Of a DNA stretch of 64,000 bases, positions 2,205 through 31,523 are shown in pieces (within the stretch, counting starts at the first letter, position 1; the number at the start of each line of letters is the position of its first letter). The stretch covers positions 3,630,001 to 3,694,000 of the forward strand of contig NC_080565.1 of assembly GCF_030253575.1 (NCBI RefSeq), given 5' to 3'. The translations under genes and the position numbers were made by a program. The notes beneath the pieces are model-generated. The model did not search any database and had not been told where the DNA came from. It saw nothing but the letters and a program-made list of their open reading frames with translations. This DNA is from Rhododendron vialii. Lineage: Eukaryota; Streptophyta; Magnoliopsida; Ericales; Ericaceae.

Positions 2205-2349
2205 CTGGGGCAAGTTTCTCAAATTCCCCAAAAATATTACACTTGTCCAAAGGGGTGTATAGCCGCACATGGCGGGGATCTGCAAGCTCCTCCGCAACAC
2301 TCCAAGAGCCTTCCGTAAACTCTATTTCGCATCCATCAGTCCACATAAC
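2205..2349 (-). CDS. Exon-like segment of an unidentified gene
   Basis: A minus-strand open segment of 48 codons sits between a good acceptor (TTTTCAG, exon from 2349) and a good donor (CCAG/GTATATT, exon to 2205). It encodes a peptide beginning VMWTDGCEIEF and including SVAEELADPRHVRLYTP. The composition looks coding, but I do not recognise the family. It lies on the same strand as the exon-like pieces at 6471-7221 and could belong to the same gene. That link is inferred from strand and proximity only. Confidence 0.35.
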
Positions 2350-4204: not shown

Positions 4205-4212
4205 GCAACACA

Positions 4213-6470: not shown

Positions 6471-7221
6471 CTGGTGAACTTGTGCCAGCTCGACAAACAT
6501 GGGAGCCAATTCAGTCTCTATGTGTGTAATATTCTCATATCCATTAGCAAGTATTGACCAATCTGTTTAAGAAGTAGCATAGTAAAAGAATAGGAAGCTA
6601 CAATGGGCAGGTCTACCACAAACACAATAAACCATACACAAGGGAGAAGAAGGGAAAAGGACAGGAATAAGACAGTGCATATACATGCTTTCAAGGAAAA
6701 TGCAAAGTGCAGCCGACTGGTTAGTGGTTAAGGTATCACAGTCTGTAGGATTGCTGGATACAATACTGCAGTGGTGATAAAATATTTAGGCCTTTAAATG
6801 TGGTGAATTTTAAAGTGCGGACAACCAAAAAAATAAACTCATCCAAGGCAGAAGAAAGAAAATAAAAAGGAAAACAAGGAGCATAACAAGATAGCAATTT
6901 ATATGTTTGATATATTGCTTTAGAAGGAGCTATGAAAAATAGACCCGGCAATGCTCCTCGACAATACTTGATTGACGAAAAAGGATAATCGATAACGCAT
7001 TAACACTATAATTTCTATCTCAAGATTCTAAGACTAGCTCACCTATTTAACATTATTTCTAGCACCATTTTTGTGCGATCAAACACTGAACTCCTAGATC
7101 AAAAGCCTCAATTTAACCTACCTTAACAAACATTGATTTCTTCAAGAAGCGCTTAGATTGCAAGCTCTCTTTTTTCAATTTGTAGTCAACCAGGTGGCAA
7201 TCATTCTCCAAGAACTCAAGG
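6471..7221 (-). CDS. Two exon-like segments, unidentified gene
   Basis: Two minus-strand segments have coding character and consensus splice sites. Segment 7221-7122 runs from acceptor TTTTAG to donor AAG/GTAGGT and encodes a peptide starting LEFLENDCHLVDYKLKK. Segment 6562-6471 runs from acceptor AAACAG to donor CCAG/GTAAGA and encodes a peptide starting WSILANGYENITHIETELA and ending LAQVHQ. The two are not in phase if joined directly, so an exon is missing between them or the gene is decayed. I do not recognise the protein. The NBS-LRR gene upstream on the same strand has its own stop at 8066, so these are not part of it. Confidence 0.35.
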
Positions 7222-7460
7222 CTAAAACAACTAAATGTGCAGAACAGTGTTAAAAATATATATGAGCAAGTAAGACCTTTGAGAACCCAAGTCATACCAT
7301 GAGTTTGTCAGACAGACTTTGCATACACATTGTCTCAAAGACTCAGGAATCAAAAACACTTAGAAATGGTGCAAAAGGGGCAAAAAAGAAAAAGAAGCCT
7401 CATAGCTAATTTGTTCCCTAGTCTTACAACATTGTGCAAAGAGATACCAGTGCACTTTAA

Positions 7461-7911
7461 TTCAATTCGTAGGATGCGTCATCAAGTTCACCTTGAGAGT
7501 TTTTAGTTTCTAACTGAGTGCTCAGTGAACACAACAGGGTACTAAAACCATTAAAAATCACGGGATTTAAATACATCAGGAGCTAAATAGTTAAGAACTA
7601 CTTTCTTCAACAGAGTTCGCTGTTTATTGTTGCAGAGGCCTCACAAATCGTATCTCCACTACTTTCTTCAACAGGGTTCTAAAACCATTAAAAATGCACT
7701 AGCACATACTTCAATTCAATTCTTAAGATGCGTCATTAACTGGTTCTTGGGAATTTTCAGTTTGTATGTACACTGAGTGGTCAGTTAATCGAAAAACATG
7801 TTACTAAAACCATTTCACTTACAGGATTTAAATACACAAGGAGCTAAATAATTAAGAACTACTTTCTTCAACAGAGTTCGCTGATTTATTGTTGCAGAGG
7901 CCTCACAAATC
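7461..7911. repeat. Diverged tandem duplication (about 190-200 bp units)
   Basis: The block 7461-7649 is repeated at 7715-7911. Shared features include 'gatgcgtcat', 'ggatttaaataca', 'aactactttcttcaacag' and 'gcagaggcctcacaaatc' in the same order. Small insertions and deletions separate the copies, so the duplication is not recent. No coding role is seen. Confidence 0.8.
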
Positions 7912-8181
7912 ATAACGGTTGTAAGATTGAGAGAACACAACCACTTATTGACATTGAAAGACTAATCAGTCTTAAAAAACGCAAACAAAAAGAAGATGCA
8001 GAAATTGGTAAATTACCTGATTGGCAAGGGACTTTCATGCTTTATCTGCATGGAGAGGGTACACTTCAGCTCCACTGTATTTTCCTAGCGTCTGAAAGCC
8101 CAAGTATCACACTAAATAATTAGGTCAGATAAAAATTTCCAAGGATTATTTCACATACGCACATGGACAAGACACACCCGT

Positions 8182-8183
<2 letters not shown>

Positions 8184-8245
<62 letters not shown>
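8184..8245. repeat. (GA)n microsatellite in the NLR 3' intron
   Basis: About 31 dinucleotide units between exons 2 and 3 of the NBS-LRR gene. Read without splicing it gives a false Ser-Leu tail, which splicing at 8283 removes. Confidence 0.95.
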
Positions 8246-8250
<5 letters not shown>

Positions 8251-9039
8251 CAATAAAACATGCAATTCGAAGAATAAAGTTACCTATTTCAATGCATGGA
8301 ATATGAGCAATCTTGTGCCAATCTTCGCCGATTTCCTTTTCGCATCTTTTCTCAAGAAGGGGACAGTTCTTTATCTCCAAATATTTAAGAGATGAAAGGT
8401 TGCCCAGGCACTCCGGCAGAGATTCCAACCCACTGAAATTCCAAATTTCCAAATATATCAAGCCAGAGAGGAGCTCAAGTTGATCGGGGAGAGACTTGAC
8501 CTCTGGCCATCCCCATAAACTTAGATGGCACCATAGTGGTGATGCAGCACTTGTGGAGGGCCAGGGGAAATATCTGTACTCCGCTCCGAATCCACCTATA
8601 ACCAATCCTTGAAGGCTGGTGGTGCAAAACAGCCCCTCCTCCCAACAACTCCCCCAATTTGGACTGGATACAATAGCCATCTTCTTGAGGGATGTGAGGC
8701 TGCGTAATGCATCTTCTGGATTAATGGGTGTCTGTAACTTTGGACAGCGAAGTAGCAATATATCTACAAGGGTTGGTTGTAGAATCGCGTCCGGCAAAAA
8801 CGTCAACTCCGGGCAATCGCGAATCCAAAGGTGCTGTAGGGATGTCGAGCCGCTGAATGCTGCTTCTGTTTGTCAATTGGACCCAACAGGTTATGGCAAT
8901 GATACGAGTATATTTGTAACACCTCTAGAAACCCTAGGTTTTCTGGTTCGTATTGTTTTTCTCATATTTTTTTCCTTAGTTATTTTCTGATCTCTTCTCT
9001 CTTTCTTTCACAAGTATCAAACAAAGCATTAGGGATTTG

Positions 9040-9800
9040 CTGGAATTTTTTTTAGTTACGGTAAACAAGTTATACCGCATGTCTAAATTATAATAATTTG
9101 TGATTTTTATTATACCAATTTTATATTTTCTAATGCATATTTATGATGCTAGTTACGACTTGTACTTTAAAATTTACCCGTTAAATATGTCATTAGCAGG
9201 TTATCTATAGTTAAAAAAATGTTAATGTAACCATAATTATTCGTACCAGAATCCATAATACTAGTACCCCAACCAAATATATGCGTACAATATCAAAAAT
9301 TAAATAATGCTACCTACAAATGTTATAACAACACCATAAATTGGCATTATCTTACCACAATGAGTCATACAAAAAATTCTTTGACTCATATGATATTCCG
9401 TAACAAAATCAAAATATGTTGTACCAGAATTAACAATTATTATACGCAAGCCAAAAATATTTGTAAAATATCACAAATTATATAAAATAACCACAATTGC
9501 TATGACAACACCTAAAATTGTCATTTTCTTACCACAACGTGTCATATCAAAAGAAAACATATTTAAATACTACAAATTATATAAGAAACCACAATTGTTA
9601 GGACAATACTATAAATTGACATTTTCTTACCACAACGTGTCGTACCAAAGAAAATTGCTTAAAATATTCCGTAATAAGACCAAAATATCTTACACAAAAC
9701 TATTGTCACAATTTAGGGACTTTGTCCACATAAACTTGGGATTAAAATGTTTTATCTCAACGGGAGGGAAATGGCTTACGAACCAAAAATCAGAAAGTTA
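9040..9800. repeat. Diverged AT-rich repeats in the NLR intron
   Basis: Very AT-rich. A unit containing 'taccacaacgtgtc' and 'aaattgacattttctta' recurs with divergence near 9340, 9510 and 9610, along with 'accaaaatat'-like segments. This is intron sequence of the NBS-LRR gene, probably a degraded non-autonomous transposon or minisatellite. No gene is seen. Confidence 0.5.
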
Positions 9801-12800
9801 AATTATGTCCTTCCATCTTAAAGACGAACTAACTTGCTGATCCCATCTCATAACCTTAGTGAACCTCAAGACCTTGGCAACAAGTTATGGTTTAGACAAT
9901 ACCAATCTTATACTATAAACTTTACACAGTATCAGTAACATTCCACCATAAACTGTAAAAGAATTAATTGTTTAGTTGGGGTCAATTATGGTAGTGATTT
10001 CGAGAAAATTGAATGACTTTCGGTGTATATGTTGAAGTAAAATTAATTAAAAGGGGTGGAAAGTAAAGGAAGAGTTTATTTTATCTGCGTGGAGGAAAAA
10101 TGTGTTGGTTTTGTAGGGTATGTGCATGTGAAAGAGATGCACACAAACTGGTGCAATGTGCATAGGTATGTGTGGTCGAATAGCCAAAACTCAAAACGAA
10201 ACAAAATAGTACTAAAATAAGTTAGGGGATGAAAAACTGTCACATTTTTGGATTTCTCCTTGGTGAGTCAACATGATAGTAAGAATAATTTATTTGGTGG
10301 AAGGAATTGAAAAAAAAAAAATACAATTGGAGGAAACTAAAGTTTCGTCCTGCCTGTTCTCAAAAAAAGAAAAGAAAATGATTCTTTTGAGTTTGGTCAT
10401 AATATTGATAAGGGTATTAGTAATTAGAAAATAGGGGAAGTATGGTGGTAAAAATGAGTGGGTGTTCTAATTTCTATTTAGAACTTACGTTTATGGATTG
10501 CACCCAAACAACGCAGAAAATAAAATTAATTCACAAACTCATTCACATGTAAAAACTTTTACGTAAAACTAATTTTTGGTCAAAAATATTTTGCATCAAT
10601 GCAAACCGAGCCTAAAGCAGCAATCTTTGAAATCCACTTCTTCCTGTATCATAAGCTGGGGCAGGCCATACCTCATTTCTTAGTAATTATGCTGGATACA
10701 ACACACTTTAATAAGTAAATGCTGAATGGATAACACATTACCTGGAATAGTTATCAACTTGGGGCAACTCGAGATATCTAACTCATGGAGATGAGGGAAG
10801 CACTCTATCATACTCGTGGCAACAGCAGGCAATGATGAAACGTCTGACCATTCTTCTAGCTGGGGCATATTAGAAAGTTCGAATTTCCTTAACGCTGGAA
10901 ATACTCTTGCAATTGCTACCCCACTACCATCGGAACTACCAACAATCCCTTCATCTGGTCCATAAAACATGGGACCAATACGCTTCAAGTTATGCAAACC
11001 CACCAGTACGATAGATGCAAGATGCGGAAGGTGTCCGAGCGCGGGGACTTGCTCACATAATCTGCAGTCTTTCAACTCAATTTTCACCAAATTTTGAAGC
11101 AAGCGAGCATTTGTACTCATCCACGATGCCCATCTTCTTCCTCCAAAATTTGTAAGAATTAGTCCCTTAACATTCCGGTGAGGCTTGAGTCCTTCCAACA
11201 CATCCTCATGGTTGTTGTTGGACTCTTCAAGGACTTCAGAGTCTCCAAGGTCTCTGTACCAGTGCAATTGAAACTCTTGAATGTTTGATTTCTCTAATAT
11301 TTTAGCCTTCTCTGCTTCTTCCTTGTCTCTCACGTGTTGTAGATCATGCACATGCAATCTACCACTTAGTTTGCTTAAGCTACCCAACTCCTCAATTCTA
11401 TGGCCAATCTCCTTACCCACAACAAAGTATGGTAATGTTTAAAATGATGTCAAATGTCCTATCTTCATTGGCATCAGTTCCCTATTATCATGATCATTAC
11501 CTTCAAGATAGAAATGTCTCAAGCTAACCAAGTTGTGAAAATCTTTTGGAAGCTTTTTTAAAGACCGTGGCAGCTTCAGTGTCTGCAAATTGTAGAGCTT
11601 GGTGATAATATTTGGGACTTTCACAATAGAAGACTTACTGAGGTCAAGGAATCTTAAATGTATAGAGTTAGAAATTGAACAACATTCTTCTTCCACCCCA
11701 GATTTTGCCAAACGCAGAGCACGAATACTCTTAACATCTTTGGTGCGTTGGGGAAGATGTTCCATTAAAAATAGTGTCCTCAGTTTTTCAATATTTTCTT
11801 TTGGAATATCTAACTGTTTTTCTTCCCTTAAAAACAAACACAGATGTTGAACATTAGGATTGTTCTTTACCTCACTAGCTTCCAAAGTCAAACATGTACC
11901 TTGTGATACATGGAGTGCAAGATCGTGTACAAGATCATGCATCTTGCAACTTGTGATATTGTTGTACTCGTCAAATTCCACTTCTTGAAATAATGAATTG
12001 AGCCATAAAATATTAAAATACTCATTGCCTAACTCTTCCATTTCCAACTTGCTTTTTGATGAAGGTTGAAGATATCCTAGACCCATCCAAAGTTGAATCA
12101 ACTCATCCTTTAAAATGACGTGGTCTTTTGGGAAAATAGAACAATATGCAAACGATTGTTTCAAAGATGGTGACAGTAAATGGTCGAAACTAAGCCTCAA
12201 AATTGTAAGAATTCTATTTTTACTTTTTGGGGAACTCCATAGTTCACTCTTCTCGATGGACTCCCAGTCTTGTTCATTCAGCTTCGAGTAAAGTAAACCA
12301 CCTAATACATTTATCGCTAATGGCACGCCCTTACACTTTGCTACCAATCTTCTACCAATATCTAATAAAGTTTGAGTTTCTCTTGGACCTCCATTAGCAA
12401 ATACTTTATTCCTAAACATTGTCCAACAATCCTCTTTCGATAATTCCAACAACTCATGGGTGCAAGACGGTAAATCTTGCAGTGCTTGTATGACTTCCCT
12501 ACTACGGGATGTAACTAAAATTTTGCTTTCCTTAGAGCCACCGATATCTATCAAAGAATTTCTCAGTTCTGACCATAAATCTGGATCCGTATTCCAGACG
12601 TCATCTAATACAAGCAAGTATTTTTTTCCATTAAGTTCTTTTCGAAGCTCTCTCAATACTCCTTGCCTATTTTGTATATTAGATTTCTTTCCTTTAAGAG
12701 ATTCCACCATCTCATTCAATAGCTTATCTACCTGGAACTTATTAGATACACAAATCCACATTCTCTTGTCACTCTTATCACTCATATCACAAAAGTTCTC

Positions 12801-13745
12801 CATAACTTTAGGCTGCTTGTAAACTACCCGCGCAAGAGTTGTCTTGCCTAGCCCAGGCATTCCAACAATGGCAATGACGCATAAAACACCTTCTACTTTC
12901 GATCCAATTAGTAACATATCCACCACTACTGAAACATCACCATCCCTCCCCACAATTGTTGTATCACCTATGGAAGGTCCAGTGTTCCTGAATTCCATAA
13001 GTTCAACAGTACTAGGACTTATGAGTTGCTCAGCCGATTTAAGACCAACATCATTTGCTGCTTTACGAATTCTGTCTAGCACTTTATTGATGTTATTGAC
13101 CTTATTAGCCATCTTGAAACGAATTGACAATGGATTAATGGAGGGGGAGAAAATATTGCACACCTTGTTCTTCATCCGGTTTTGTACCTCAATCTTTCTT
13201 CGAAAAGCTTCATAGGCCAATTCATCCAGCACATTCTCAGCATCGCAGATTGCATCCTTGAGTCTCTTTAGCCATGGCATCATAGCATGTGATGTTATTT
13301 CACGGTTCTCAGCATCATGTAACAAACCCTGAATGATTTCCAACCTATCGCGGAGTTTTTCGAGGCCTTCCTTGAAACCCCATGCCAGGTTAATCTGATT
13401 GGTTGCTAGGGGAAGCAACCCATTCAAGATTGCATTGGCTGCAGGGATGAGCAAAGCCTCAGCCATGTTTTTCTTATGAAAACAGAAAATTGGGCTTTGA
13501 AGAAAAGAAAAAAAAAAAGCTTATTGAGCAATATGATAATACAAGGTTAAAGAGGAGGTTTTGTGATTTCCACTGATCGAGGATAAGAATTACTAGATGG
13601 TAGAGGACTTTTCATGTTCGAGGTCTTCTCTGGTCATTTAGATAAAAAACAAAAACAGAAGTCTTGGTCATAGCCCAGCTATTTACTTTTCTTTTCTTTT
13701 TTTTTGAGAAAGCACAACAATAATCCTGCATTCCTAAATAAAATA

Positions 13746-14172
13746 CTTCCTGCATTCCTAAATAAATATTCGGTGCACAAACTTAAGCTATTACAAATAT
13801 GCATTTTTTCTGTTAAAAAATTTATGCTTTGTTTGGATTTCTTTTTGGAAAAAAAAATTCTCAACTCAAAAAATACTCATTATCCTAATTCCAATCATTA
13901 CTCATCCTATCACCAATCATTATTCACACTTTTCTCTCTATCTCTCTTCAATCATTACCTCTGCTTTCAATCATTTCTCTTTCCACTCTTAACCCTACAA
14001 AATTTGTCAAAAATTTCTCTAAAACTCATCCAAACTAATTTTTTTCACAACTTAAAAGAACTAATTGATAACTATTGATTTGTGGAAAACAAAATTGATT
14101 TTTTTACAAAAAAAATCATCGCTTTAAAGACTTAGATTTGTGTGCCGAACATTTATTTAGAGACGGATGGAG
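13746..14172. mobile_element. Stowaway-like MITE (Tc1/mariner)
   Basis: The ends form inverted repeats of about 44 bp: CTTCCTGCATTCCTAAATAA on the left and, on the complementary strand, CTCCATCCGTCTCTAAATAA on the right. Each is flanked by TA (13744-13745, 14173-14174). The CTCCNTCCGTNCCTAAATAA terminus and TA target are classic for Stowaway. It is non-coding. It lies about 280 bp upstream of the NBS-LRR start codon, so it could affect that promoter. Confidence 0.85.
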
Positions 14173-14276
14173 TAATACTTACGCACACCCAACCAACGAA
14201 AAGCCCCAAAAAGATACGTATTTTTGGCCCCATTTGGTGCCTCCATTGTTTTTCCCAAACCCTTCCCATTCACTAA

Positions 14277-14720
14277 GGGTATGTTTGGTTTGATAAAATG
14301 GAATTGACAATGTAATGGAATTGAAGTTGGAATGGAATTGAAGTAATAGAGATTGGAATATCCTTTCCATTCCCAAGTTTGAATGTGCTTAGAAATAGCC
14401 AATCTCATCCGCAATAAAATGGTGTGACAATAATATTTTTTGGTGTGGCAATAGTAATTTTTGAAGTGACAATAGTAATTTTTGGTGTGACAATAGTGAA
14501 TCTTGAAGTGACATTAATAATTTTGGTGTAGCAAAGAAATAGAATGGCAATTCCATAGGGTTTTTTTAGTGGAATGACAATTTTTTTTACTAAGGTGAAT
14601 AGTGATTCCATTTGGAATGATCACTCAATTATTTAATGGTGAACCAAACATGGAAATAAGTATTCTATGGAATGATCATTTTATTTCAACGTTGATTCAA
14701 TCGAACCAAATATATCTTAA
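14277..14720. mobile_element. Candidate MITE of uncertain class
   Basis: The left end (AAGGGTATGTTTGGTTTGAT) is partly matched, in inverted orientation, by the right end around 14688-14720 (AAGATATATTTGGTTCGATT on the complementary strand). The body contains many 'tggaatga' or 'ggaattga' words and a short minisatellite. No clear target-site duplication was found, so class and borders are tentative. Confidence 0.5.
14418..14540. repeat. Minisatellite, about 23-bp unit
   Basis: Five to six degenerate copies of a unit like 'tggtgtgacaatagtaattt' lie head to tail, alternating between 'ggtgtg' and 'gaagtg' variants. It sits inside the candidate MITE. Confidence 0.75.
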
Positions 14721-15015: not shown

Positions 15016-15899
15016 CAGGGGTGTTATTCGGTTCGGTTCGGGGTGGATTTGCCGCACCCCGACCGGGTTCGGGGTATATATTTCGGAAACCGATCCCGAC
15101 CGGTATTAATTTCGGTTCGGTTCGGTTCGGGGTGAGTTCGGTTCGGTCGGGGATTTCGGGGCGTTTGGTCTGCCCGAAATGGGCCTTAGTTGGGCCATTT
15201 GGGCCGTTCTTAAAAATTAACAATAGACTACGGGCTATGTTTGGACCATTTTTTCACCCATATTTGGGCCATTTTCACATGTTTCTCTCACCCATATTTG
15301 GGCAATTTTCAACCTTAAGTCAATCACCCATGTTTGGGTCATTTTTTCACATTTGGGCCATCGTAATTTGTACCTTCTTTTTTTTTTTCAAACACCAATT
15401 GAAAAAAAAAAAAAACATACAACAAGTATGCTCAAACAATTACAACTTTTACAAGTACTCTTCCACCATCTTCTTCTTTTTTCAATCGAATGGAAATATT
15501 TTCTACACTAGTGTATATAACTTGGAGGAGTTAAAGTAATTTAGAACAGAGAGAGTAATCGATTGGAAAATTTTGCAAAAACGTAAATAAATCAAGCAAT
15601 GAAATTCCAAAAAAAAAAAAGTAAGAGCCAAAAGTTAACCATTCAAAACAATAAGAGCCAGAAGATTAAAACAATTTATATAAATATATATAATATATTT
15701 ATATATTATATAAATATATAATATTCGCGCTCGGTTCGGTCGGTATAGATTTCCAGAAAACCGAGACCGAACCGACCTAGGTTCGGTTCGGTTCGGTCCA
15801 CCCCGAACCGAAAAAAAACTCCCTTGGACCGACCGAAGACCGAACCGATCGGTCGGTTTTTTCGGTCTTTTCGGTCCGGTCGGGTTCGTAACAGCCCTA
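15016..15899. mobile_element. hAT-type MITE with TTCGG-rich ends
   Basis: The element is 884 bp and is flanked by a perfect 8-bp repeat, CATGACAC, at 15008-15015 and 15900-15907. The termini are CAGGGGTGTTA and, on the complementary strand, TAGGGCTGTTA, typical hAT starts. Both ends carry long runs of GGTTCGG or its complement, forming large GC-rich subterminal inverted repeats. The centre is AT-rich. The empty site is visible at 728-735, where CATGACAC occurs once with the same flanks. No transposase is encoded. Confidence 0.93.
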
Positions 15900-19035: not shown

Positions 19036-19133
19036 AGAATAAATTCCACACGGAGGATCCGTGTTGAAGCAAGTTTCCCCCTACCCAAATTAAAACCTGT
19101 TTCTTCACGGACCCTCCGTGTAGAATTTATTCT
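19036..19133. repeat. 98-bp hairpin (28-bp arms), possible tiny MITE
   Basis: The arms 19036-19063 and 19106-19133 are inverted copies with few mismatches (core CACGGAGG...TCCGTG), separated by a 42-bp loop. GTTGAA lies at 19029-19034 and again at 19135-19140, a possible target duplication. It stops 30 bp before the target duplication of the Mutator-like element. Confidence 0.7.
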
Positions 19134-19172
19134 CGTTGAAGAAACTTTCATGGCAATGCATCCGAATATCTC

Positions 19173-19235
19173 GAGTCCGGCTATGGTGCTCCCAAAAAAA
19201 ACAGCTGGTTTTGGGAGCATGATACTCCCATGAAA
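19173..19235 (+). repeat. Left terminal inverted repeat with internal hairpin
   Basis: Starts GAGTCCGGC, then TATGGTGCTCCCAA. An almost complementary TTTTGGGAGCAT follows about 14 bp later, so the end can fold on itself. The next segment, ATACTCCCATGAA, is shared with the right end. Confidence 0.8.
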
Positions 19236-21594
19236 TCTGAACCGTAGGATGTGATTCTTTTAATCCTGGCCATTCATCAAATCTCCTGAATGCAATTCAT
19301 CTCTCTCCTCTCTTTCTCTCACTACCTCCTGTTCCGGTTGCATCACATCCGTGTAAAAGAAAAAAAAAATTGCATCACAGGTAAAAATTTTGAGCCCTAA
19401 AATTTACTGTCGCTGCTCTCTCCTCTCGTCAATCATCGTCTACCTCTCCGACGCCTCCATAGCCGGACGCCTCTATCTCTCTCCCCTCTGCACAGTCAAC
19501 GAAAACCCTCACCGCTCTTCCACCTCTATACCTCCATAGCCCCTGAACAAACAACGACGAACCCTCCCTCGTCCTCAACAGTCGGTCACATCGAAAAGCC
19601 TCTCCATTGTGCGAGGTATTTCTCTCTCTCACTCTCTTAAACACACAGCCACCACTACAATACACAAACACCCCTGCACATAGGGTTTTGTGGGTTCTCT
19701 GGAACAGAAAACCAAAAGACAGCTAAGAATTTGGGAGTATGGAACAGAAAACCACACCCCACACCTTTGCCTCCTCCTTCTTTTGACAAATTTTTTTTTT
19801 TTTGTTGCTAAGCTTTGACGTGGGTTTGTTGGCTTGTTTTGTTTTATCGTGGGTTTGTGGGTCTCCTATGAATTGATTTGTATTATTTTAGTTGAAAAAC
19901 TAGATCTGTACATGATTGGCTCAAGTTTCGACACGTTTCATTATAATCTGTAATTGAAAATTCCAATTGTTTAGTTTGTTTGACCTGGGGTTGTGGATTT
20001 TGCTTTCTTTAATTATTGTACCTCAGGAGTGTTTTTTGGTTTGCTATGTAGATAGTGATTGGTTTGCTCTGTAGATAGTGATTGAATAATGTAAAGAGAA
20101 CAATGTGGGGATAATGGCAGACATGCGGGTCCCCCAAGTTTGATCACATGTTTTGGTATTTTAATTTGGCCGACAGGAGTGTTTTTCTTTCTGCAATGTC
20201 CAAATTCTAATGTGCACCAATCACTATCATCATCATAAGAATATATGATTGTGGGTCATCTTGATTGTGCATCTTATCATAGTTAATTAGTCAATGCACA
20301 AGTTTGAGAATCGATGGCCCCATATGTTGGGTGTTGTGCAGAAGGTTCGGGATCTTGATAATGTAGATCAAAGTTAACCTGTAGCATGTCATTAAAATTT
20401 TGAAAATGTTCTGGAGGATTTTTGTTGGATTCCAGTTGATTGAGTGTTTGAGATTTGAAAAGCTACAAGGCTGCCAACAAACGGGGCTTAGATTTGCTGT
20501 TGCTCTATATAGTAAGTGGTAACCATTAATGACAACAGATGCCAAGCCTTCTGTTGGTTTAATAGTAATGTTCAAATGGTCTATCTCTTTGGCAAAGCCA
20601 ACTGGTACCAGCTGAAAGTATTTAACTCCAAAAAGATTCTGCTTGTTTGAAAGTAAATTAATAGCAAAGGAGTGTTTTGATCATGCAAATATCGTTGGGT
20701 GACTGAAAAGATGATAGTGCCGAGCACATCCTTGTTAATGCAATATGATGTCTCAGGCACCAACTAAAAGTGAAATCTGAATGGTAGGGGGAAAACAGAT
20801 GAGATGCTTATTATACTTCCCATCCAACTTGCATATATTTGTTCTGTTAATCAATAGATCATTTTTCTCGTTCGTCACTCATTTGTAAGTTACAAAATCT
20901 CTTGGCTTAGACGTTTTGAAGACCATTGGAAGTTCCCTTTTGGTTACCTTTATTGTTAATGGTCTAAACACATATATTGAAGAGAAGCTTCACATAGCCT
21001 GAGATTTGTCACATGCTTGCTTAGCTTAGGAGTTATTAGCACCTAGTAATTTCTGGATTTCCTTATTAGGAAAAAAAAAATATCCGGATTTCCTGTTGTA
21101 GGCCATCATATTTGTCTTTTGTTTTCAATTAGCTCTAAAATGTTCACAGTAATAAAAAAAAGTCCAAGTCTCCAATTTTGTAGTCTTAGCCCTAGTAGTA
21201 GAAATACCAAAAGCTAAAGACACATATATGAAGCTTTCACTACAATTCAACATGAGCACCAAGATGGACACGTGACATGACACCAACAATTCGATTCGTA
21301 AATTTCACGAAAAGTGAAGGACAAGACACGTTGGGCTAAACTTTTCATAAAAAGGTTTCATTATTCATGTGTCTATACACTAAATAAAACATCATCTATC
21401 ATGCCAAAAAAAAATGCTTCCCTAAGTTAAAGAAGACTGTAAATTTGCCATTATAGTTTCGTTAATTGCCCCTCCACTGTGATGGGGACCATGGGGTAAT
21501 ATTGAAAGCATTGTACATATGTACTCAATCTTGTTTCTCACGAACTAACTATCAAATTTTTTTTTAACAGGTCCATTTGTTTTAAGAGTTGAAA
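19236..21594 (+). promoter_or_regulatory. Left non-coding arm of the element, presumed promoter and 5' UTR
   Basis: About 2.4 kb with no convincing coding exon. The block 19300-19640 is CT-rich, like a plant 5' leader. A consensus acceptor (TTTTTAACAG) at 21561-21570 lies 24 bp before the start codon of the protease gene, suggesting a spliced 5' leader. Promoter position is inferred, not seen. Confidence 0.4.
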
Positions 21595-24500
21595 ATGGTT
21601 AAAGAAGGCCGTAATGCTGTTCCAAAGCATCCTTCTAATGGATGGATATATTTCTTGTATGTCTTTTTGATATTTTGAGTATCTTTTAATGGCCACAAGT
21701 TACGATATTCAATTGATGTACAATATTTTTTTTTGTAGCCAAGAACAGTCGAAGATGACTAAGAAGAGCTCATCAAAACGAATGGTAATTACAATTTTTT
21801 CTATAGTTGTGTTTACTCACATGTGGATTGTTAATGTATCTAATTAGGATTTGCACTCTTTCAATAATTTTAGTCAATGAGTGAAATTCGTGCAAAGTGG
21901 AAAGCTTTAGGAGACAAAGCTAAACAAAAGTACATTGAAAAGGCTAAGCTAAGTTCCGAAGTGTACAAAGAGCAAAAGGTTAAGGTTGATCCTCAAGAAG
22001 ATTCAAAGGTGCAAATGTTCTGTTTTTTAGCACTTATGTTTATGCATATTCTTTCCAGTTTTACTTGACTGTGAATTTGATTAGAGTTGTTGATGTTGTG
22101 TTTAGGAAACCTTTACTACAAGAACTCAACTTAAGACGGCATGTGATATTATACGCAATCTTGAATCGCAACAAGTGGAGAGTGTAAAGGCAATGGGATT
22201 TGGAGGTCTTTTGCGTTTGAAATGTACTAGGCTGGATAGAAAACTTTGTGAGCAGTTGGTTAGTAAATTTGATCCCGTATCACTTTGTTTATATGTGCAT
22301 GGTAAGAGTCCCATAATTACACCATTAGATGTGCACCACATACTGGGATTGCCATGTGAAGGTAAAAGGGTGATCCTTAAAGGAAACCTTTCTGAAATAC
22401 TTCCCTTGTGTGAGACACATTGTGTGGGTGCTCAAAGTTCAATTTCGTTGCGTCATTTGGAAAACTATGTAAGGAACACGAAAGACAACGATGATAATTT
22501 CAAGGTTGCATTTGTATTGTTCATTATGGGGGCTGTTCTCTGTCCAACGTCGGAATTGGGAGTCAATCGACGTTTTCTACATGCAGTAAAGGACGTGTCT
22601 TCTATTAGTGAATTAAATTGGAGCCAATTTGTGCTTGACTTTTTAGCCAAAGGCATACAAAAATACCAGGATGGACGAAAAGTGATCCGTGGCTGTATAC
22701 TATTTCTAATGGTACATCTCTTTAACTTTATTTTTTACATCAATGTAGTTGCTTCATTGTGGAATTGATTATGTATCGTTTTTTCCCTCTACAGTTGTTC
22801 TATTTTGAACATTGCACGCCGGCCATAGATTTCATTTCTCCTTGTGCATGTCGGCCTTCACCTCGTCTCGTACAATGGGGAGATAAAGAGATTAGGGACA
22901 GGATACGCTGGCTTGATCAAAGCAGTTCTGGAAAGGTAATCTTATTAATTTTTTGATCAATTAGTTTTGTTTCATATTTTGAAGCGTCTATTTACGTAGT
23001 AAATGCTAAACATATGTAATAGCTCAAAATCATAGCGTTTGTTTTTCCATAATAGCTCAAAATCATTGTCGAGGATGGAGTTGGCAAGAGAGGGAGTGCC
23101 GTAGATCAAGGAAAGGAGATTGGCCAAAATATACCGATGGAGAGATTTCAAGGGATAGAAGAACTAAACAGTATTTTAAAGAAACTGGCGAGTATAATGG
23201 AAACAATGGATGTAGGGGGGAAGAAAACTAATGAGAATTCATTGGCGGCTAAAGTAAGCATGGACATGAAAGGCACTCCTTCACCCGTTGTCAATGAGAA
23301 AAAAGGCAAGAAAGAGCTTTCATTTGATAGTTCGATATCTCCTTTGACAAATAAGGAAAAAGACAAGAAAGAACAATCTTCGGGTCATTTGACATCTCCT
23401 TTGAAGGCAAACCAAGAAGAAAATACTAAAAAGCCATCATTGAGTCATTTGACTTCTCCTTTGAAGACAAACAAGGAACAAGACATGAAGGAACCTAAAA
23501 TTAAGCCTTCATCAAAGAGATTAAGAAAGATGGCCACTAATATTGGTGATATCATGTCTTCAACGGCTCCTCCAACTATTGGCATGAACAAGAGGCAAAA
23601 GAAATGCCAACAAGAAATACCTAGGACTACGTTGAAGGGATCTCAACCCGTGAAGAAAAATGCCAACAAGGTAACACAAAGTATTTAAGTACCATAAGCT
23701 TAATTCTTATAGAACTTTATAATTTATGTATCTTCATTAGCATACGTGTTTTTTTATTTGTAGAAGCCTGCTATGGAATGCCAACAAGAAATGGCAAGGA
23801 CTGGGTTGAAGGAATCTCAACCCGAGAAGAAAAATGCCAATGAGGTAACACAAACTATTTAAGTATATAAGCTTAATTCTTATAGAACTTTCGAATTTAT
23901 ATGTGTCTTCATTAACATACGTGTTTGTTTATTTGTAGAAACCTCCTATAGGGATGGTACAAGAGTTGATCCTAAGATTTGTCTTTGACACAACGTTATC
24001 TGTAAGGTAAAAATTCATTACAAGCTATACATAAATTATGATGTTCTATTCGTAGATCGACTTAACTTTGCAACTTTGGCATAATGTAGAGACCAACTTT
24101 GTAACTTTGGAATAAGCTATGCAACTCGCTCAGATTTTATGTCATTACGGAAGAATGGATGGGTTGTGGGTGAGGTGAGTATTATAGTTTTTTGGGCCTA
24201 TTATAATAGACTACATGAATGCGATAACTAACTAAGGGCTATATTTTTTAGATCATAAATGCAGTTGCTTTGCGGAAAACTTTAATACAAAGTAAGAGAG
24301 ACCCGGATGCATTATGGCCATCATGGTACTTGCCCACTTATTTAGCGGTATGTATTCGTAATGCATTAGAAGTTTGAACGATAGTATGTGGCTATAGCAA
24401 TGTGTAAGTGCTCCTTTATGTTTGTTTGTAGAGTTATGCTCTCAATGGTGGTATTAATTCCCGCACTTGGGTAAAGTATTATGGTGGATCTAGTCGATAC

Positions 24501-25070
24501 ACAGGAATACTCGAATCGATGGAACGGGTGTACATCCCAATCAATGAAAACAACATTCATTGGTTTATGTGTGTTGTAAACTTCAAACATGCAAATGTGT
24601 ATGTACTTGATTCATTACCTTCTCTGAGCAAACCCAAAGTACAAAACGAGAAGGTCCTGCGTGTGCTTGAATATTTGGATGATGTAATTCAACACTTGGG
24701 GAATAACGGATGTGTCATGAAAGCCCATAAGCTACCAATTAAAAGACTGAAATGGCTTCCAGTTCAAGAACCAGGTAGCGATGATTGTGGTGTGCACACT
24801 GCCAAGTACTTTGATTTGGAGCAATTTAATGAGGAAGAAGCCGTTAAGGTATAAAATTAGTCTTTTTATTTATCATATAGTTACAATTCATTTGGATCAC
24901 TCATTATTTCTAATCTTTGGTTATTTTGTTAAATGTAGTTGAGATTCAATTCTGAAGAGGGTAGGAACAACTTGATTTTGGACTTGATCCTTTGTGGCGA
25001 GAACGTAATCAGGAATGAAGTCATCCGAAAGGCTCAAGAAAAATACCGCAACACTAGAAGGATAATATGA
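21595..25070 (+). CDS. HMG-box-like / Ulp1 (C48) cysteine protease, transposon companion protein
   Basis: Twelve exons joined by GT-AG introns, all in phase, give 827 residues: 21595-21656, 21739-21784, 21874-22008, 22106-22711, 22795-22935, 23056-23670, 23764-23844, 23939-24006, 24090-24174, 24252-24347, 24432-24848, 24939-25070. Residues 10-75 resemble an HMG box (WIYFFQEQS, then IRAKWKALGDKAKQKYIEKA). Residues about 95-330 resemble the DUF1985/plant-mobile type domain found with Ulp1 in plant transposons. Residues 360-560 are Lys/Ser-rich with three SPL-containing repeats of about 22 residues. The C-terminal C48 protease keeps His688 (NNIHWF), Asp705 (VLDS), Gln757 (VQEPGS) and Cys764 (DDCGV), so it should be active on SUMO-like substrates. 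Exon 7 and its intron are a tandem copy of the end of exon 6 and its intron. It converges on the transposase gene. Nuclear location is inferred. Function in transposition is unproven. Confidence 0.88.
23590..23938 (+). repeat. Tandem exon-plus-intron duplication
   Basis: The last part of exon 6 with its intron (about 23590-23763) is repeated as exon 7 with its intron (23764-23938). The unit is about 175 bp. Both coding copies contain CQQE, a T/GLK step and KKNAN. Both introns start GTAACACAAA and share 'aagcttaattcttatagaac' and a 'catacgtgttt' segment. Confidence 0.9.
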
Positions 25071-25620
25071 TACCAATTGTAGTTTTTTTACGATAATGTA
25101 GCTAAAATTCAGTTATGGAGACTAACAATGATATGGCAAATGCTGCCTTTTTGTGAACACGATGATATGGCAAAATTCAATCATGTTGTAAACTTGATGA
25201 ATGTGATGCGCCTTTGTGGCTTTTGTTGTAAACTTGATATGGCAAGTACTGCCTTCTTTGGCTTCTTTTATTTTACTGCTGCTGTTGTCTGATCAAATGG
25301 CCAGCTGTAATGGTGATCTGTTCTGTTATGGGACTGTTCTGAACAGTTTTCTGTTTCTGCTGCTATTTCTTCTGCTGATACTTTGGGTAATATGTTGGAT
25401 AACTATTTTGCTATTGAACTACTGCTGCTGTCCAGGTGTTGTGTTGTTGGCTGCTATGCTCCTAAGGCTGCCTTCTGTTCCGTTATGACTGCTGTTTGCT
25501 ATTGAACTGCTGCTGGCTGCTTTGTATAAGCTTTGGTTTAAGCTATGTATTCGATTATGTCTGGTACCCATGTCACTTTTGTACCAGATTGTTTGGTGTG
25601 TCATGAACAGATTCTTATGT
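25071..25620. other. 3' flank of the protease gene, CTG-rich
   Basis: Presumed 3' UTR and spacer. Degenerate CTGCTG and TTGCTATTGAAC words make a false hydrophobic frame at 25216-25488. No gene is called. Confidence 0.5.
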
Positions 25621-26500
25621 TCTCAAAAATCGTACTTAAAAAAGTCGGTGTAGTTCTCATTTTCAGTGCATTACTTACCATTTATACAGGGTGTGCTTAC
25701 TAAAATCTGGAAAATCTTACCATTTCAATTTCAATAACCGTACTTACAAAAATCTGGGAGTGCTTCTCATTTTCACAGCATTACTTACCATTTATACAGG
25801 ATGTGCTTACTAAAATCTGGAAAATCTTACCATTTCAATTTCAATAACCGTACTTACAAAAATCTGGGAGTGCTTCTCATTTTTACAGCATTACTTACCA
25901 TTTATACAGGGTGTGCTTACTAAAATCTGAAAATTCTTACCATTTCAATTTCAAAAACCCAACTTACAAAAATCTGGACATGTTTCTTATTTTCATAGCA
26001 TTACTTACATTATAAATAGGGTGTGCTTTCTAAAATCTGAAAATTCTTAACATTTCAATTTCAATAACCGTGTACTTACAAAAATCTTGGCGTGCTTCTC
26101 ATTTTCACAGCATTACTTACCATTTATATAGGGTGTGCTTACTAAAATTTAGAAATTTTTACCATTTCAATTTCAATAACCGTACTTACAAAAATCTTGG
26201 CGTGCTTCTCATTTTCACAGCATTACTTATCATTTATACAGGGTGTGCTTACTAAAACCTGAAAATTCTTACCATTTCAATTTCAATAACCCTACTTACA
26301 AAAATCTGGACGTGCTTCTTATTTTCATAGCATTACTTACATTTTAAATAGGGTTTGCTTACTAAAATCTGGAGATTCTTACCAACTCAATAACTTACAG
26401 AAATCTGGCCATTTTACTCATTGTCAAAGCAATACTTACCATATAGGCAAGGTATGCTTGCTAAAATCTGGGCATTGTAACTATTTAAATAATTATACTC
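25621..26500. repeat. Array of 110-bp tandem repeats
   Basis: About eight head-to-tail copies with a period of 110 bp. The landmark TTACTTAC occurs at 25671, 25781, 25891, 26001, 26113, 26223 and 26333, followed by a degenerate last copy. Each unit contains several CTTAC words ('gcattacttacca', 'tgcttactaaaatctg', 'cgtacttacaaaaatct', 'cttaccatttcaa'). It separates the two convergent genes of the Mutator-like element. Confidence 0.95.
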
Positions 26501-26628
26501 ACTGCCTTACATAACTACAGATAAGTTCTTGTCCAGATCATTGCCTTAATTTTACTAAATTAAAATATTACAATAAACTTCTTGTCCCTACTCAATGCCT
26601 TACTACAAATAAAGGTTACATTTATCCT

Positions 26629-29138
26629 TCACAAATCTTGTCCGAAATCATCTTCCCATCCTCCAACGTTGCTGCCATAGAACTGAGCTTGAACACTCTC
26701 GGAATTTCTTGACCAGTTAGCAGTCTACAAAATTCAAGTTTGAAAATTAGTAAATGGACAAATAAATAATAGTCTATCAACTAACTAGATAATAAGAGGC
26801 TTACCAAATTAGGGTTGACACTGGATTCACAACCATTGGTTGTGTAATCAGTGTGAATAAACGATGGGTGATATATCGATGAGTCTCGCCCGGTAAATGA
26901 TTGTTGGTGAATAACGCTCACATCTGATTCATATGTGTCTTCATCCTCATTCATGTTTCCCACATTATCTCCATGCACTAATTTGGGGCATTTGGTTCTT
27001 ATGTGACCAGGTTCTCTACAATTGCCACATTTTCTTATTTTCGGGATGAAGTCCTTGGCCAAATTATGGGTCCCTTTACCTTTGATAATGACTGGGTCGC
27101 CAACACCAAAATGCATAGATGTCCCCTCAACATTGTCGTTTTGTCTCATATTTCTTTTCTCCTCCTCAACATGTAACACATAGAGCTCCCTCATTCTGGA
27201 TGTTAACTTGGTGATTTCTTCTTTGATCTCATTATATCCCTTCGTTATGTGAGAAGCATAATAACACATTTCGACACATGCGCTTGACAATGCCCCAAAC
27301 CTTGTCGTTTGCGTGACCCATTCTGGCATTGGTGTGCTGCCATGTAGAGGGAAGGATTTCGCCGTTTTTGTCCACCTTTGTAAGATCAAACAAGAGGGAA
27401 TTTCTCTCATATGCTCCATTTTCATTACTGAGATCATATGCTGACATGGAAACCCAATTGACTCAAATTTCAAGCAAGAGCATTTCATGATGCCATCATT
27501 CGGCTGATAGTTGACACTCCACGTGGCGTCCGGCTGTTGGTATCGAGATAAGTAGTAAATCCGAAAATCTTCAAACTCAACTTTATCCACCTTAAACAAT
27601 GATTGCTCTTTCTTAATTTCTTTGAGAAACTTGTTAAATATGCCCCGAGTATATGTATCAGCCGCATGTTTTTCAATTCGTTTCATGCATGTAGAAAGAA
27701 CCGGAGTACTATTCACACTTTCAACTTGTCCCTTAGCCTCGTTATGACGAAGTTTTGCAAGAGCCCTATCAAACGCTTGTACGAATTCAAAAAGCTTGAG
27801 ACGTAGTTTTAAGAATCGATTCATGTATGCATTCATTCCCTCAACACGTTGTGTGCTTTTTGCACCCGCAAAAAAAATACCTCGCAGGTATGCCTCTGCC
27901 CATAAGGTCTTCTTTTTATAAACATCTACCGCCCACTGGCTTTGGTGAAGGCTATAGTCATCCAAAAGATTCTTCCATGCAACTTCAAACTCTTCTTCAG
28001 TTGACAATGACATGCATTTCTCAAAGTCAGCTAAGAATCCGGGAACATGGACATTACTGACAGCATTTTTTTTAAGATGCCATTTGCATAAACGATGATT
28101 AACATTAGGTAACACAGTTTTTATTGCTCTCCGCATAGCCTTATCCCCATCGGTCATCACGGACACAGGCTTCTTGTGGTCCATGGAATCAAGAAATCTT
28201 TCCAACACCCATGTATAAGCCTCAACAGTCTCAGTAGTCAACAATGCACAACCAAAAATTGTTGTTTGAAAGTGACTATTAACTCCAGCTAGTATCACCA
28301 ATGGCTTCCGATACGCATTCGACCGATAAGTCGCATCAAATATTAGCACATCTCCAAAACACATATAATCTATCCTACATGTTACATCTCTCCAAAACAG
28401 ATTATTTAGCCGATTTTGCTCATCCACGTCATATTTATAATAGAATAAGGGGTCATTTTCGGCTTTCGCACACAAGTAGGCTAAGGCACCTTCTGCATCA
28501 CCATCTGCAACCTCTATATTGCGCTGAGCTGTAAAATGATTGTAAAGATCTTTTTGCGTGTATCCGACAGACTCATATCCACCGGATTGTTGTGCCGCAA
28601 AATCCATTATGTGACTTGTTTTAATACCAACTTTATGCATAGTATTGGCCGAGGCTTTATCAGAACTACTAACCTTCCGGTGAGAGCGAAGAAAAGGGAT
28701 ACCACGAGGCCCTATCAAGGGATGGTTGTGGAAGCTCACAAAGTTATTAACCAAGTACTTGCCAGAACTTCTCTCCAATGTGACACTAAATACAGCAGGA
28801 CATCCAACTCTAGTAAGTGCCTGCGGCCCTCTTATTCGATCTTCTCTCTCCAAGTGTTTAGTGTCTCTATATCCTTCTTTCGAGCATACCCACTTTCTTG
28901 ACTTCACGATACCAACATTGTCCTTATGCATATTATAGTTCCGAATACTAAAGCCGTTCACTTTGGCATATGCATTATAGAATGTTTCTCCATCCTCATG
29001 CATGTCAAATGTCATTTGATAAACTTCTTCTTCCGTTAATTCATCCAACCGTTTTTCGTCATTTTCGCCATCATTGCTAGAGTCGTCACAAATGTCAATC
29101 ACTACATTCTTTCCAGTCCCCTGAACATTGTCATCCAT
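26629..29138 (-). CDS. FAR1-related / MULE transposase
   Basis: Two exons (29138-26805 and 26724-26629) joined at TTTG/GTAAGC and TTTTGTAG/ACT give 809 residues; without splicing the frame stops at 785. Residues 50-140 form a FAR1-type DNA-binding domain (GETFYNAYAKVNGFSIR, Cys85, Cys113, HNH near 137-139). Residues about 260-360 are the MULE transposase core. The probable catalytic triad is Asp268 (IFDATYR), Asp330 (MTDGDKAM) and Glu433 (STQRVEGMN). A SWIM zinc finger (CSC at 553-555, CQH at 565-567) and a CCHC knuckle (Cys704, Cys707, His712, Cys717) follow. The reaction is cut-and-paste DNA transposition in the nucleus. Host FAR1/FRS transcription factors share this architecture, but location inside an element with a perfect target duplication argues for a transposon gene. 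The start is the first Met, followed by an acidic N-terminus. Confidence 0.93.
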
Positions 29139-30840
29139 CTCTTAGAATCTGATTCAGAAAAATAGGTCCACAATTAATGGTAAAAACTAACACAGATATG
29201 TTAACCATAAATACTTTTTAACTTATGAAGATTACCTACCATTTCCATAATCATACTTACCACAAAAAAGGAATTTTTTACTAAATTTTGGACATGCTTA
29301 CCACGAATACAGAGAACTTATTTTCCTAATACTTCTTAAATATTGTTTCATCCGTAATAAAAATACCATAAAAAGAGGTATAAAAGGCATAGGCGATGGT
29401 AAGTATAACCATAAAAAACGTAAAAACCTGGGAAGTTTTAGATTATTGTGAAACACTTATTCGAGATTCTTCAACTTATGATCTTTTGGTAAGTTGGTAT
29501 GAGATAATCATCACAACTACATTCAGTTTGTTCTTCAAAAAAACTTACTTGGTGAGCTTCAAAACTTCTTATGGAGGTTCTTCTTAAATCTTCATTTTTT
29601 TTGGACAAGAAGAGAGATGAATGGGAGCTAGGTGAGTTAAAGTGGATAAGTTTGCAGGGAGATAGAGGAGTTAGAGTGAATAAGTTTACAGGGTTTAAGG
29701 TAGGTATGGAGAAACCTAGTACCATTAATGTCATAATTGGTGGTAGGTAAACACGGCAATTGGTAAAACGTGATCAGTTTGTGTGGTAAAAATGGTTTAA
29801 GCATATAGTCATTTTGCCCTTATTTCATGGTAAGTATTGTCAACCATGTAGTAAGTATTATCAATGAATATTAGTTCACGTAAAAATCCAGTTTTTGTGG
29901 TATCTTTAGCCTTTTACTTTGGTAAGTAAGTTTTTATTCTATAGTAAGCGTGGCATTAATGACGTGTAGGTATACATTTATGTACATCATCATTAATGTC
30001 ATATTACCTACCACATTAAATTTTATTTGGATCTATTTTATTACTTTTATGATAAATTAAATAAAAGCATTTATATTAATAACATTACTTTTAAAAAAAT
30101 ATCAATTAAATGAGATATTTCAATTTACTGGTTCACTAGTGGTTACTCCTACATTAGTTAAGTGATCAATGTTAACCTCAAAGACTGTTACTCATTCATT
30201 TACTAAGTGGTCAATGTTAACTATCAAATAACCATTTTTGAAATTTGCTAATAGTGTAACTTGAAGGATTGAAATAGATAAGTCTGTCGTTGAGTAATTA
30301 AACAAATTAGTCAGCTTACTTTAGCCAATTATATTAATTTTCACTAATCACTATCAATCAACATCATTGTTAACTACCATATCTGCCAATTATAATCTTA
30401 ATCGATTCAAATCGTTTGATCAATTGGCTGGACATATAACTAGATCAATCAATTACAAATGAATCAATATTCGTTGATTGATTGTTGCCAAGTATATTAG
30501 TATCAACATTATTAGTTGTTAGATTTGCAAAATATATCATATTGATCACTATAAACTATATTAATGAAATTGAATAGCCTAATTTCATTAAATACTACCA
30601 TAAATTTAATTAAGAATCCTACAAAATTATTCCATAGCTATTAAACAAAATATATTTATTGTTCAATTTCGTTGTAACAATCAACTTGTAGCATTATTTT
30701 ATAATATATATTCATTAAATTTGTAAGCTATCAAATTATTAAATAAATATATTATTTTTTTCATAATATTTAAAACTAAGTTACTTAAATATATCTACAA
30801 TAAATGACTATTTGAAAATTAATTAATTAAATACATTTAT

Positions 30841-31000
30841 AATGTCCTTCGGAAATTATGAAAAATATTTTTCAAATTTTTTTTATATAATTCTTCTAAT
30901 TGTATTTTTTTAATTGATATAATGTCCTTCGGAAATTATGAAAAATATTTTTCAAATTTTTTTTATATAATTCTTCTAATTGTATTTTTATAACCAATTA
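30841..31000. repeat. 80-bp tandem duplication
   Basis: The unit beginning 'aatgtccttcggaaattatg' occurs at 30841 and again at 30921, nearly identical. It is recent because the copies hardly differ. Confidence 0.95.
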
Positions 31001-31010
31001 AAATTTTAAA

Positions 31011-31200
31011 CTAGATTTATAAATGAACACCTGTGTTTAGATAATTCTTCTAATATATAAATCTCTAAAATCTCCAAATTTTCCCGCCAAAAAAAAAGTT
31101 ACTCACTAGATTTATAAATGAACACCTGTGTTTAGATAATTCTTCTAATATATAAATCTCTAAAATCTCCAAATTTTCCCGCCAAAAAAAAAAAGTTACT
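31011..31200. repeat. 95-bp tandem duplication
   Basis: The unit beginning 'ctagatttataaatgaacac' and ending in a 'ttttcccgcc' plus A-run occurs at 31011 and 31106, differing mainly in A-run length. Confidence 0.95.
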
Positions 31201-31444
31201 CCTTTTTTTTTTTTTAACTTCGTTGGTTACTTGTTACCTGACCAACAGGTTGTAGTAAGTATGCCTGTTTATATGGTAAGTTTTGCCTTACACAATGGTA
31301 AGTGTTCTCTTATCAATAGTAAGTATTTCCTGTTTTTGTGGTAAGTAATCTTCCGTTTTTTTGGTCAAAACCACCTCGTTTTTACCAAAACCACTCAACT
31401 TTTAGTTTTTGATTTTCATCCAACGGCTGTGATTTATCTATTTT

Positions 31445-31514
31445 CAATCCAAAGGCTATAATTCATTGGGAGTATGGTGCTCCCAAACCACTTGGGAGCA
31501 CCACAGAAGTTTTG
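31445..31514 (-). repeat. Right terminal inverted repeat with perfect hairpin
   Basis: Read inward on the complementary strand it starts CAAAACTTC, then TGTGGTGCTCCCAA. The 12-bp arm TGGTGCTCCCAA is followed 5 bp later by its exact complement TTGGGAGCACCA, forming a perfect stem inside the terminal repeat. Confidence 0.85.
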
Positions 31515-31523
31515 GAATATCTC

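Follow-up and report, generated by a model that had tools for sequence, protein, structure and literature searches.

VANDAL elements combine a transposase of the MuDR type with target-site duplications (TSDs) of 9 bp. Statements on the domains of VANC proteins were reportedly made by Sasaki et al. in EMBO J in 2022, and the helical spacing of the motifs is said to matter. VANC proteins carry DUF1985 and variable regions often with tandem peptide motifs (PMC5735166). Binding to short tandem-repeat motifs of non-coding DNA and removal of methylation have been described for them (PMC5735166, PMC10398659). The target-defining part of VANC was left to future study in the 2017 paper (PMC5735166). 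A review from 2026 states that elements carrying KIU, a Ulp1-bearing VANC, hypomethylate their own family via specific motifs (PMC13317346). ULP sequences also occur in Jittery-like Mutator-like elements (MULEs) of grapevine, with melon cited, and in many unrelated plant DNA transposons, for which they were judged to be repeatedly captured or often lost (Benjak et al. 2008, PMC2528002). The domesticated FAR1/FHY3/FRS proteins are generally single-copy, without TSDs and terminal inverted repeats (TIRs) (PMC2528002). The element described here, a MULE of 12,342 bp, occupies positions 19173-31514 of a 64,000-nucleotide stretch of the Rhododendron vialii genome, hereafter the window (C9:3630001-3694000 of a 532.6-Mb, 13-contig assembly, which was also the genome searched for copies).

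The element is a recently mobile MULE with intact genes, and its sequence indicates that it is probably autonomous. On balance, we lean towards the reading that this apparently autonomous FAR1-lineage MULE encodes, next to its transposase, a VANC-like HMG/PMD(DUF1985-like)/Ulp1 protein that would act on motif arrays. VANC-like anti-silencing is proposed because the anatomy of the element matches that of VANC systems, to which it adds an HMG box while its transposase is of the FAR1 type. The transposase would move the element, and the second protein would act as a VANC. It may bind a short motif (about TACTTACCA), the HMG box probably helping, in candidate target arrays located between the two genes, upstream of the transposase and close to the right end, with motifs often two or four helical turns apart. 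At these sites the protein would strip silencing marks from the element and from its non-autonomous relatives, and its Ulp1 domain may remove SUMO or SUMO-like modifiers from silencing proteins.

Borders and copies of the element

The element is bounded by perfect 9-bp duplications of GAATATCTC, found exactly twice within the window; for two random 9-mers of this base composition, the chance of a match is about 7e-6.
19164-19172, no strand: left 9-bp target-site duplication GAATATCTC
19173-19254, plus strand: left terminal repeat, internal inverted repeat with arms 19182-19197 and 19209-19224
31443-31514, minus strand: right terminal repeat, perfect 12-bp internal inverted repeat (31475-31486 and 31492-31503)
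31515-31523, no strand: right 9-bp target-site duplication GAATATCTC

A preliminary description of the window, made from the sequence alone, had reported perfect 9-bp duplications and matching ends. The duplications are confirmed, both at these positions and by the same termini in other copies. The matching ends are imperfect terminal repeats: a local alignment of the 120-bp ends scored 40, above the maximum of 37 among 2000 random pairs, and they agree in register at 16 of the first 25 bases and differ at 6 of the outermost 8. The TIRs expected of the Mutator superfamily are present, in a short and degenerate form.

Copies were located with a 19-base word of the internal array, which has 49 occurrences spread over 17 loci, the window among them (hand-counted), and 10 of the 16 other loci were examined in sequence. 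Exact 9-bp TSDs, each of a different sequence, flank the same termini in 8 of these 10, and no TSD was found at the full-length copy at C4:32.73 Mb or at the partial copy at C4:37.13 Mb. The 9-bp TSD typical of the Mutator superfamily is found in the window, in these 8 copies and in a sister element described below. Chance as the origin of the 9-bp repeat was rejected, since 8 of 10 copies have the same termini with other TSDs.

The copy at C4:32.73 Mb is a second full-length one, with 21 mismatches over 12,260 aligned bases and gaps of 1, 1, 1 and 80 bases. Ten of the 12 exons of the plus-strand gene are identical, splice sites included, and the transposase frame is open and 100% identical. 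Its fetched flanks had no match to 5 kb of each window flank, and a segmental duplication was rejected because the flanks are unrelated. The suggestion of a possibly active autonomous element, made in the preliminary description, gains from this near-identical copy in unrelated flanks and from the borders shared with other copies. The same 3.0-3.6-kb derivative is present at six loci and retains about element bases 1-319, 6250-7639 and 10552-12342. Both genes are lost from it, 31 transposase residues being the sole protein remnant, and the arrays and ends are kept; in the window, 10 of the 13 ACTTACCA sites considered below fall within the retained segments. Other deletion forms occur at C1:33.79 and C5:14.97 Mb.

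Near the right end lie two recent tandem duplications (30838-30993 and 31010-31201, of 80 and 95 bp); the 80-base gap makes the C4:32.73 Mb copy the shorter one. Outside the element, a MITE-like foldback (19036-19133; 41-nt arms, 85% complementary, 16 nt between them) is located about 30 bp left of the TSD, and large open reading frames at 8120-13466 on the minus strand resemble, by eye, an NBS-LRR resistance gene.

The two genes and their recurrence

The element carries two convergent genes, a FAR1-type transposase of two exons and 809 aa and a plus-strand gene of 12 GT-AG exons and 827 aa.
26805-29138, minus strand: transposase exon 1, with FAR1 domain, MULE DDE domain (D268, D330, E433), SWIM and weak zinc knuckle
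26629-26724, minus strand: transposase exon 2, identical to the end of R. vialii protein P0019
21595-22008, plus strand: exons 1-3 (21595-21656, 21739-21784, 21874-22008), HMG box, residues 10-71
22106-22935, plus strand: exons 4-5, plant mobile domain (PMD)/DUF1985-like region, residues 152-313
23056-24006, plus strand: exons 6-8, a variable and repetitive part bearing peptide units of the SPLK and CQQE types
24090-25070, plus strand: exons 9-12, Ulp1 (peptidase C48) domain with H688, D705, Q757 and C764

The second exon corrects the transposase from the 785 aa given in the preliminary description to 809 aa, and the product shows zero mismatches to P0019 across the 551 aa of the latter. Its Pfam matches were MULE (5.2e-26), FAR1 (2.7e-18), SWIM (2.6e-4, above its cut-off) and a zinc knuckle below cut-off. 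The MULE-type DDE transposase is that of the Mutator superfamily, and the FAR1 DNA-binding domain, MULE core and SWIM together characterize FAR1/Jittery-type MULEs. The catalytic residues D268, D330 and E433, already recognized in the preliminary description, are present in the sequence and kept in 107, 111 and 102, respectively, of the 120 homologues listed, partial ones counted. No relative of the transposase was found by sequence in the PDB at E 0.1.

Isoform gaps aside, the 827-aa protein is the same as R. vialii LOC131301994 isoform X2 and as LOC131322026 isoform X5. Peptidase C48 was matched at 1.3e-13, with the His-Asp-Gln-Cys residues of the family; the spliced 12-exon gene reproduces the protease residues H688/D705/Q757/C764 previously proposed. 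The HMG box of the window protein alone falls under the curated Pfam cut-off (E=3.9e-4). A family profile (23 rows) found Abf2 (1.6e-9), TFAM (9.8e-7), NHP6A (2.1e-5) and Ulp1 (5.9e-4) among PDB chains, and the Lithocarpus homologue P0016 passes the cut-off for HMG_box with 1.5e-7; both results uphold the HMG box of the preliminary description. Another homologue, P0008, matches PMD above cut-off (8.6e-10). The number of peptide units in the variable region varies among homologues, and tandem peptide motifs of the kind reported for VANC proteins are present. An AlphaFold prediction of P0001 with 23 rows had a mean pLDDT of 34.8.

To what extent the two genes belong together was assessed with 55 transposase loci (hand-merged from 61 rows) and 41 loci of the second protein (from 95 rows); both searches score best candidates only, and a miss is no proof of absence. 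A partner within 15 kb was found at 10 of 13 transposase loci with 68-100% identity and at 10 of 18 with 38-67%, altogether 20 of the 31 loci at or above 38% identity; the two genes are convergent in every one of these pairs. For a random locus, the chance of a partner is about 0.0025. Among the best candidates scored, none of the 24 distant FAR1-type loci (31-35% identity) had a partner within this distance. Matches to about residues 36-74, the third exon inside the HMG box, were obtained at six loci, a count in which short exons are readily missed; by place or identity all six belong to the closer subfamilies.

The sister element at C5:24.42 Mb has a transposase 75% identical to that of the window, its own TSD (CACATTGGT) and an HMG-PMD-Ulp1 gene convergent to the transposase. 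A more distant FAR1-type MULE at C4:33.86 Mb (C4:33855000-33872000; L031 and L035, joined positions 1705-14503) has TIRs of about 50 bp, an exact 9-bp TSD (search tolerance 12 bases) and a convergent PMD-Ulp1 gene, in which a crude frame scan revealed no HMG box. It bears a different subterminal word, GTTACGAT, with 6 sites near the ends; the top-ranked word of this stretch falls outside the element. For R. molle and R. simsii, 13 tagged loci matched the second protein, and at 3 of them the adjacent locus tag has a transposase match (hand-counted, among the best 120 of 273 transposase matches), with identities to the window of 89/91, 51/74 and 68/89% for second protein and transposase. The adjacent tags Rhmol01G0207100/200 (P0039/P0095) were dropped as a pair, the PMD being by eye unlike that of the window protein. 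Gene models in Citrus fuse Ulp1 and FAR1 domains. Judged from these sequences, the combination of a FAR1-lineage transposase with Ulp1 is widespread.

The same pairing in other copies, which the preliminary description had named as a check, is seen convergently at 20 of 31 related loci. Its caveat that the two genes might turn up in unrelated elements or between different borders does not apply, because other copies share the borders and the two genes recur together. The pairing also bears on the possibility that the second gene is a captured SUMO-protease gene that hitchhikes and is of no use to the element. Such a history is conceivable in view of the repeated capture or frequent loss of ULP sequences in unrelated plant DNA transposons (PMC2528002). 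We nevertheless regard it as quite improbable here, as the reading frame and the catalytic residues are intact, the convergent pairing recurs at the 20 related loci and it persists in R. molle despite divergence to 51%.

Motif arrays and their possible role

The word ACTTACCA is present in 13 copies within the element, in non-coding arrays, against a single one in 51.6 kb of flank. Its CTTAC core is enriched in three places: the intergenic region has 27 where 2.6 are expected, the zone upstream of the transposase 10 (expectation 1.5) and the right subterminal region 6 (expectation 0.5); no enrichment was detected in either gene or in 30101-31190. Many spacings within the element are 20-22 or 41-42 bp.
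25654-26391, no strand: 110-bp tandem array of 6.7 copies, CTTAC/ACTTACCA motif at spacings 22, 20, 27 and 41
29256-29948, no strand: motif zone upstream of the transposase, with 10 CTTAC cores and five ACTTACCA
31255-31345, no strand: right subterminal motif cluster of 6 cores, mostly 21-22 bp apart

Sites outside the 110-bp array are phased at 10.5 bp (p=0.001; 0.005 over three periods), driven by the right end (p=0.004). In three copies with 104-bp arrays, phasing at 10.5 bp was found with p values of 0.0012, 0.0072 and 0.028. The phasing results are mixed, and an equally clear periodicity everywhere was dropped as a claim. Because of the opposite orientations of the intergenic array and of most sites in the other clusters, we did not adopt a reading of GGTAAGTA as a 5' splice site or U1 site. 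Depletion of CpG as a trace of silencing was likewise dropped (observed/expected 0.32 in the intergenic region vs 0.61 in the flanks). The strongest 8-mer cluster of the flanks is formed by 12 CGGTTCGG words in a GC-rich repeat at 15029-15840.

The ten other copies contain 8-14 ACTTACCA each, vs 0-3 in their flanks, and 110-bp arrays of 4.2 to 8.2 units. Because the search word for these copies contained the motif, the analysis was extended to loci picked by transposase or by left end. In the sister element, ACTTACCA is the top non-coding 8-mer (11; flank 1), and the intergenic spacings are mostly 21 and 41-42 bp, with a phase p of at most 0.0002 that is inflated by tandem duplication. Three further intergenic stretches, at 74-76% transposase identity, hold 6, 8 and 3 ACTTACCA. 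The motif-independent search with the left end gave 21 matches, 14 of which have the exact 19-base word at most 8 kb away. Over six motif-independent stretches beside transposase genes, ACTTACCA occurs 2-8 times each and CTTAC at 3.4-12.7 per kb vs 1.5, and the spacings of 20-22 and 41-42 bp recur. Three relatives at 46-50% have 1, 0 and 0 ACTTACCA in the DNA examined, which for two of them covers the locus partly, short of the partner gene; the third is the MULE at C4:33.86 Mb.

The DUF1985/PMD-like domain and the motif arrays, both absent from the preliminary description, suggest anti-silencing of the VANC type. Several observations weigh against this reading. Within the window protein, PMD (3.2e-6) and DUF1985 (1.6e-4) both stay under their Pfam cut-offs, and the left part of the element has no CTTAC cluster at the promoter of the VANC-like gene. 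Phasing at 10.5 bp was not found upstream of the transposase alone (p=0.139; sister 0.36), and the 110-bp array of the window is unphased (mean cosine -0.21), as are those of two 110-bp derivatives. With all tandem arrays masked, 115 of 300 flank segments contained some 8-mer that matched or exceeded the motif enrichment of 2.2e-7. The arrays in the ten copies and the derivatives are there partly by construction, because the finding word contains the motif. Conservation of motif columns among copies was not clearly higher (p=0.16 overall, 0.039 in the right zone). The arrays of the sister and the window have a homologous 51-bp unit in common, and tandem units count the same spacings repeatedly. 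The three longer of the other left-end matches have diverged arrays (ACTTACCA 4, 2 and 2; CTTAC 12.7, 9.8 and 3.6 per kb), and the four short ones, of about 65-100 bp, have no array, with ACTTACCA 0-1 and CTTAC 1.4-2.4 per kb. The motif-independent stretch at C5:31.34 Mb holds merely 3 ACTTACCA, and another 8-mer tops four of six ranked stretches (L036, L037, L038 and L045), which in L036 and L038 is an overlapping form of the motif. Enrichment within the window was rejected as proof of motif function, since 115 of the 300 control segments hold an 8-mer as enriched; by a comparison of flanking contexts, the motif was indistinguishable from other repeated words.

The weakness of this strict control, the complete catalytic residues and the homologous unit common to the arrays of both subfamilies would also fit a general effector of the SUMO pathway, the Ulp1 domain hitting host silencing factors in trans and the arrays representing ordinary repeat drift. 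Such an effector appears improbable to us, since relatives found independently of the motif also carry this word in arrays that are similarly spaced. By another explanation, the HMG/PMD/Ulp1 gene encodes an accessory transposition factor and the arrays are sites for the transposase or the factor that aid assembly of the transposition complex. In both subfamilies, one motif cluster indeed lies subterminally at the right end, and the gene-less copies that have moved, as judged by exact TSDs, retain arrays and ends, albeit in copies found via a motif-containing word. The majority of sites, however, are internal or upstream of the transposase, the left part has no excess, and short left-end matches without array exist as candidate mobile forms; we consider an accessory factor unlikely, and continue with VANC-like anti-silencing as the preferred reading.

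A wider form of this reading is tentative and in our view possible. Anti-silencing of the VANC kind may have joined a second transposase lineage, FAR1/Jittery, with the HMG box as a DNA-reading or DNA-bending module. The system would recognise TACTTACCA repeats aligned along a single helical face, while relatives of the element in the same genome would use diverged partner proteins and different words. If so, anti-silencing encoded by transposable elements would extend past VANDAL elements, and its transposon-borne, sequence-specific form would be a modular feature found widely in other MULEs as well. A VANC-like protein with a recognisable HMG box, a candidate target word of 8-9 bp and natural gene-less derivatives bearing arrays would make it directly testable which part of VANC sets its target.

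Comparison with known systems

The R. vialii element resembles VANDAL in the 9-bp TSD. It differs from VANDAL/VANC in its FAR1-lineage transposase, the HMG box and another motif, and its anti-silencing is putative. With the Kaonashi (KI) MULEs and KIU of Arabidopsis it shares a ULP domain reversed relative to the transposase (PMC13317346, PMC2528002), and its putative VANC-like gene with a Ulp1 domain has a counterpart in KIU, a Ulp1-bearing VANC gene as the review describes it (PMC13317346). KI-MULEs, in contrast, have mudrA and are without TIRs, and the accessible parts of their descriptions do not mention an HMG box; the element has a FAR1-type transposase and degenerate TIRs and hence falls outside this group. 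The FAR1/FHY3/FRS transcription factors have the same FAR1, MULE and SWIM domains but are domesticated, whereas the R. vialii transposase resides in a mobile element.

In the Jittery-like MULEs of grapevine and melon, too, a FAR1/Jittery-type transposase and a ULP gene are combined in one element; the accessible part of that description makes no mention of an HMG box, a PMD domain or motif arrays (PMC2528002). In the open-licence literature, no published match was found for an HMG box in such an element. The preliminary description had considered the three-way pairing of FAR1-lineage transposase, Ulp1 protease and HMG box unmatched: the first two are published together (Benjak et al. 2008, PMC2528002), and it is the addition of the HMG box that stays without a match in that literature. 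The two-gene pairing is a known kind; new, as far as the open-licence literature shows, are the spaced TACTTACCA arrays and the HMG box on a VANC-like protein.

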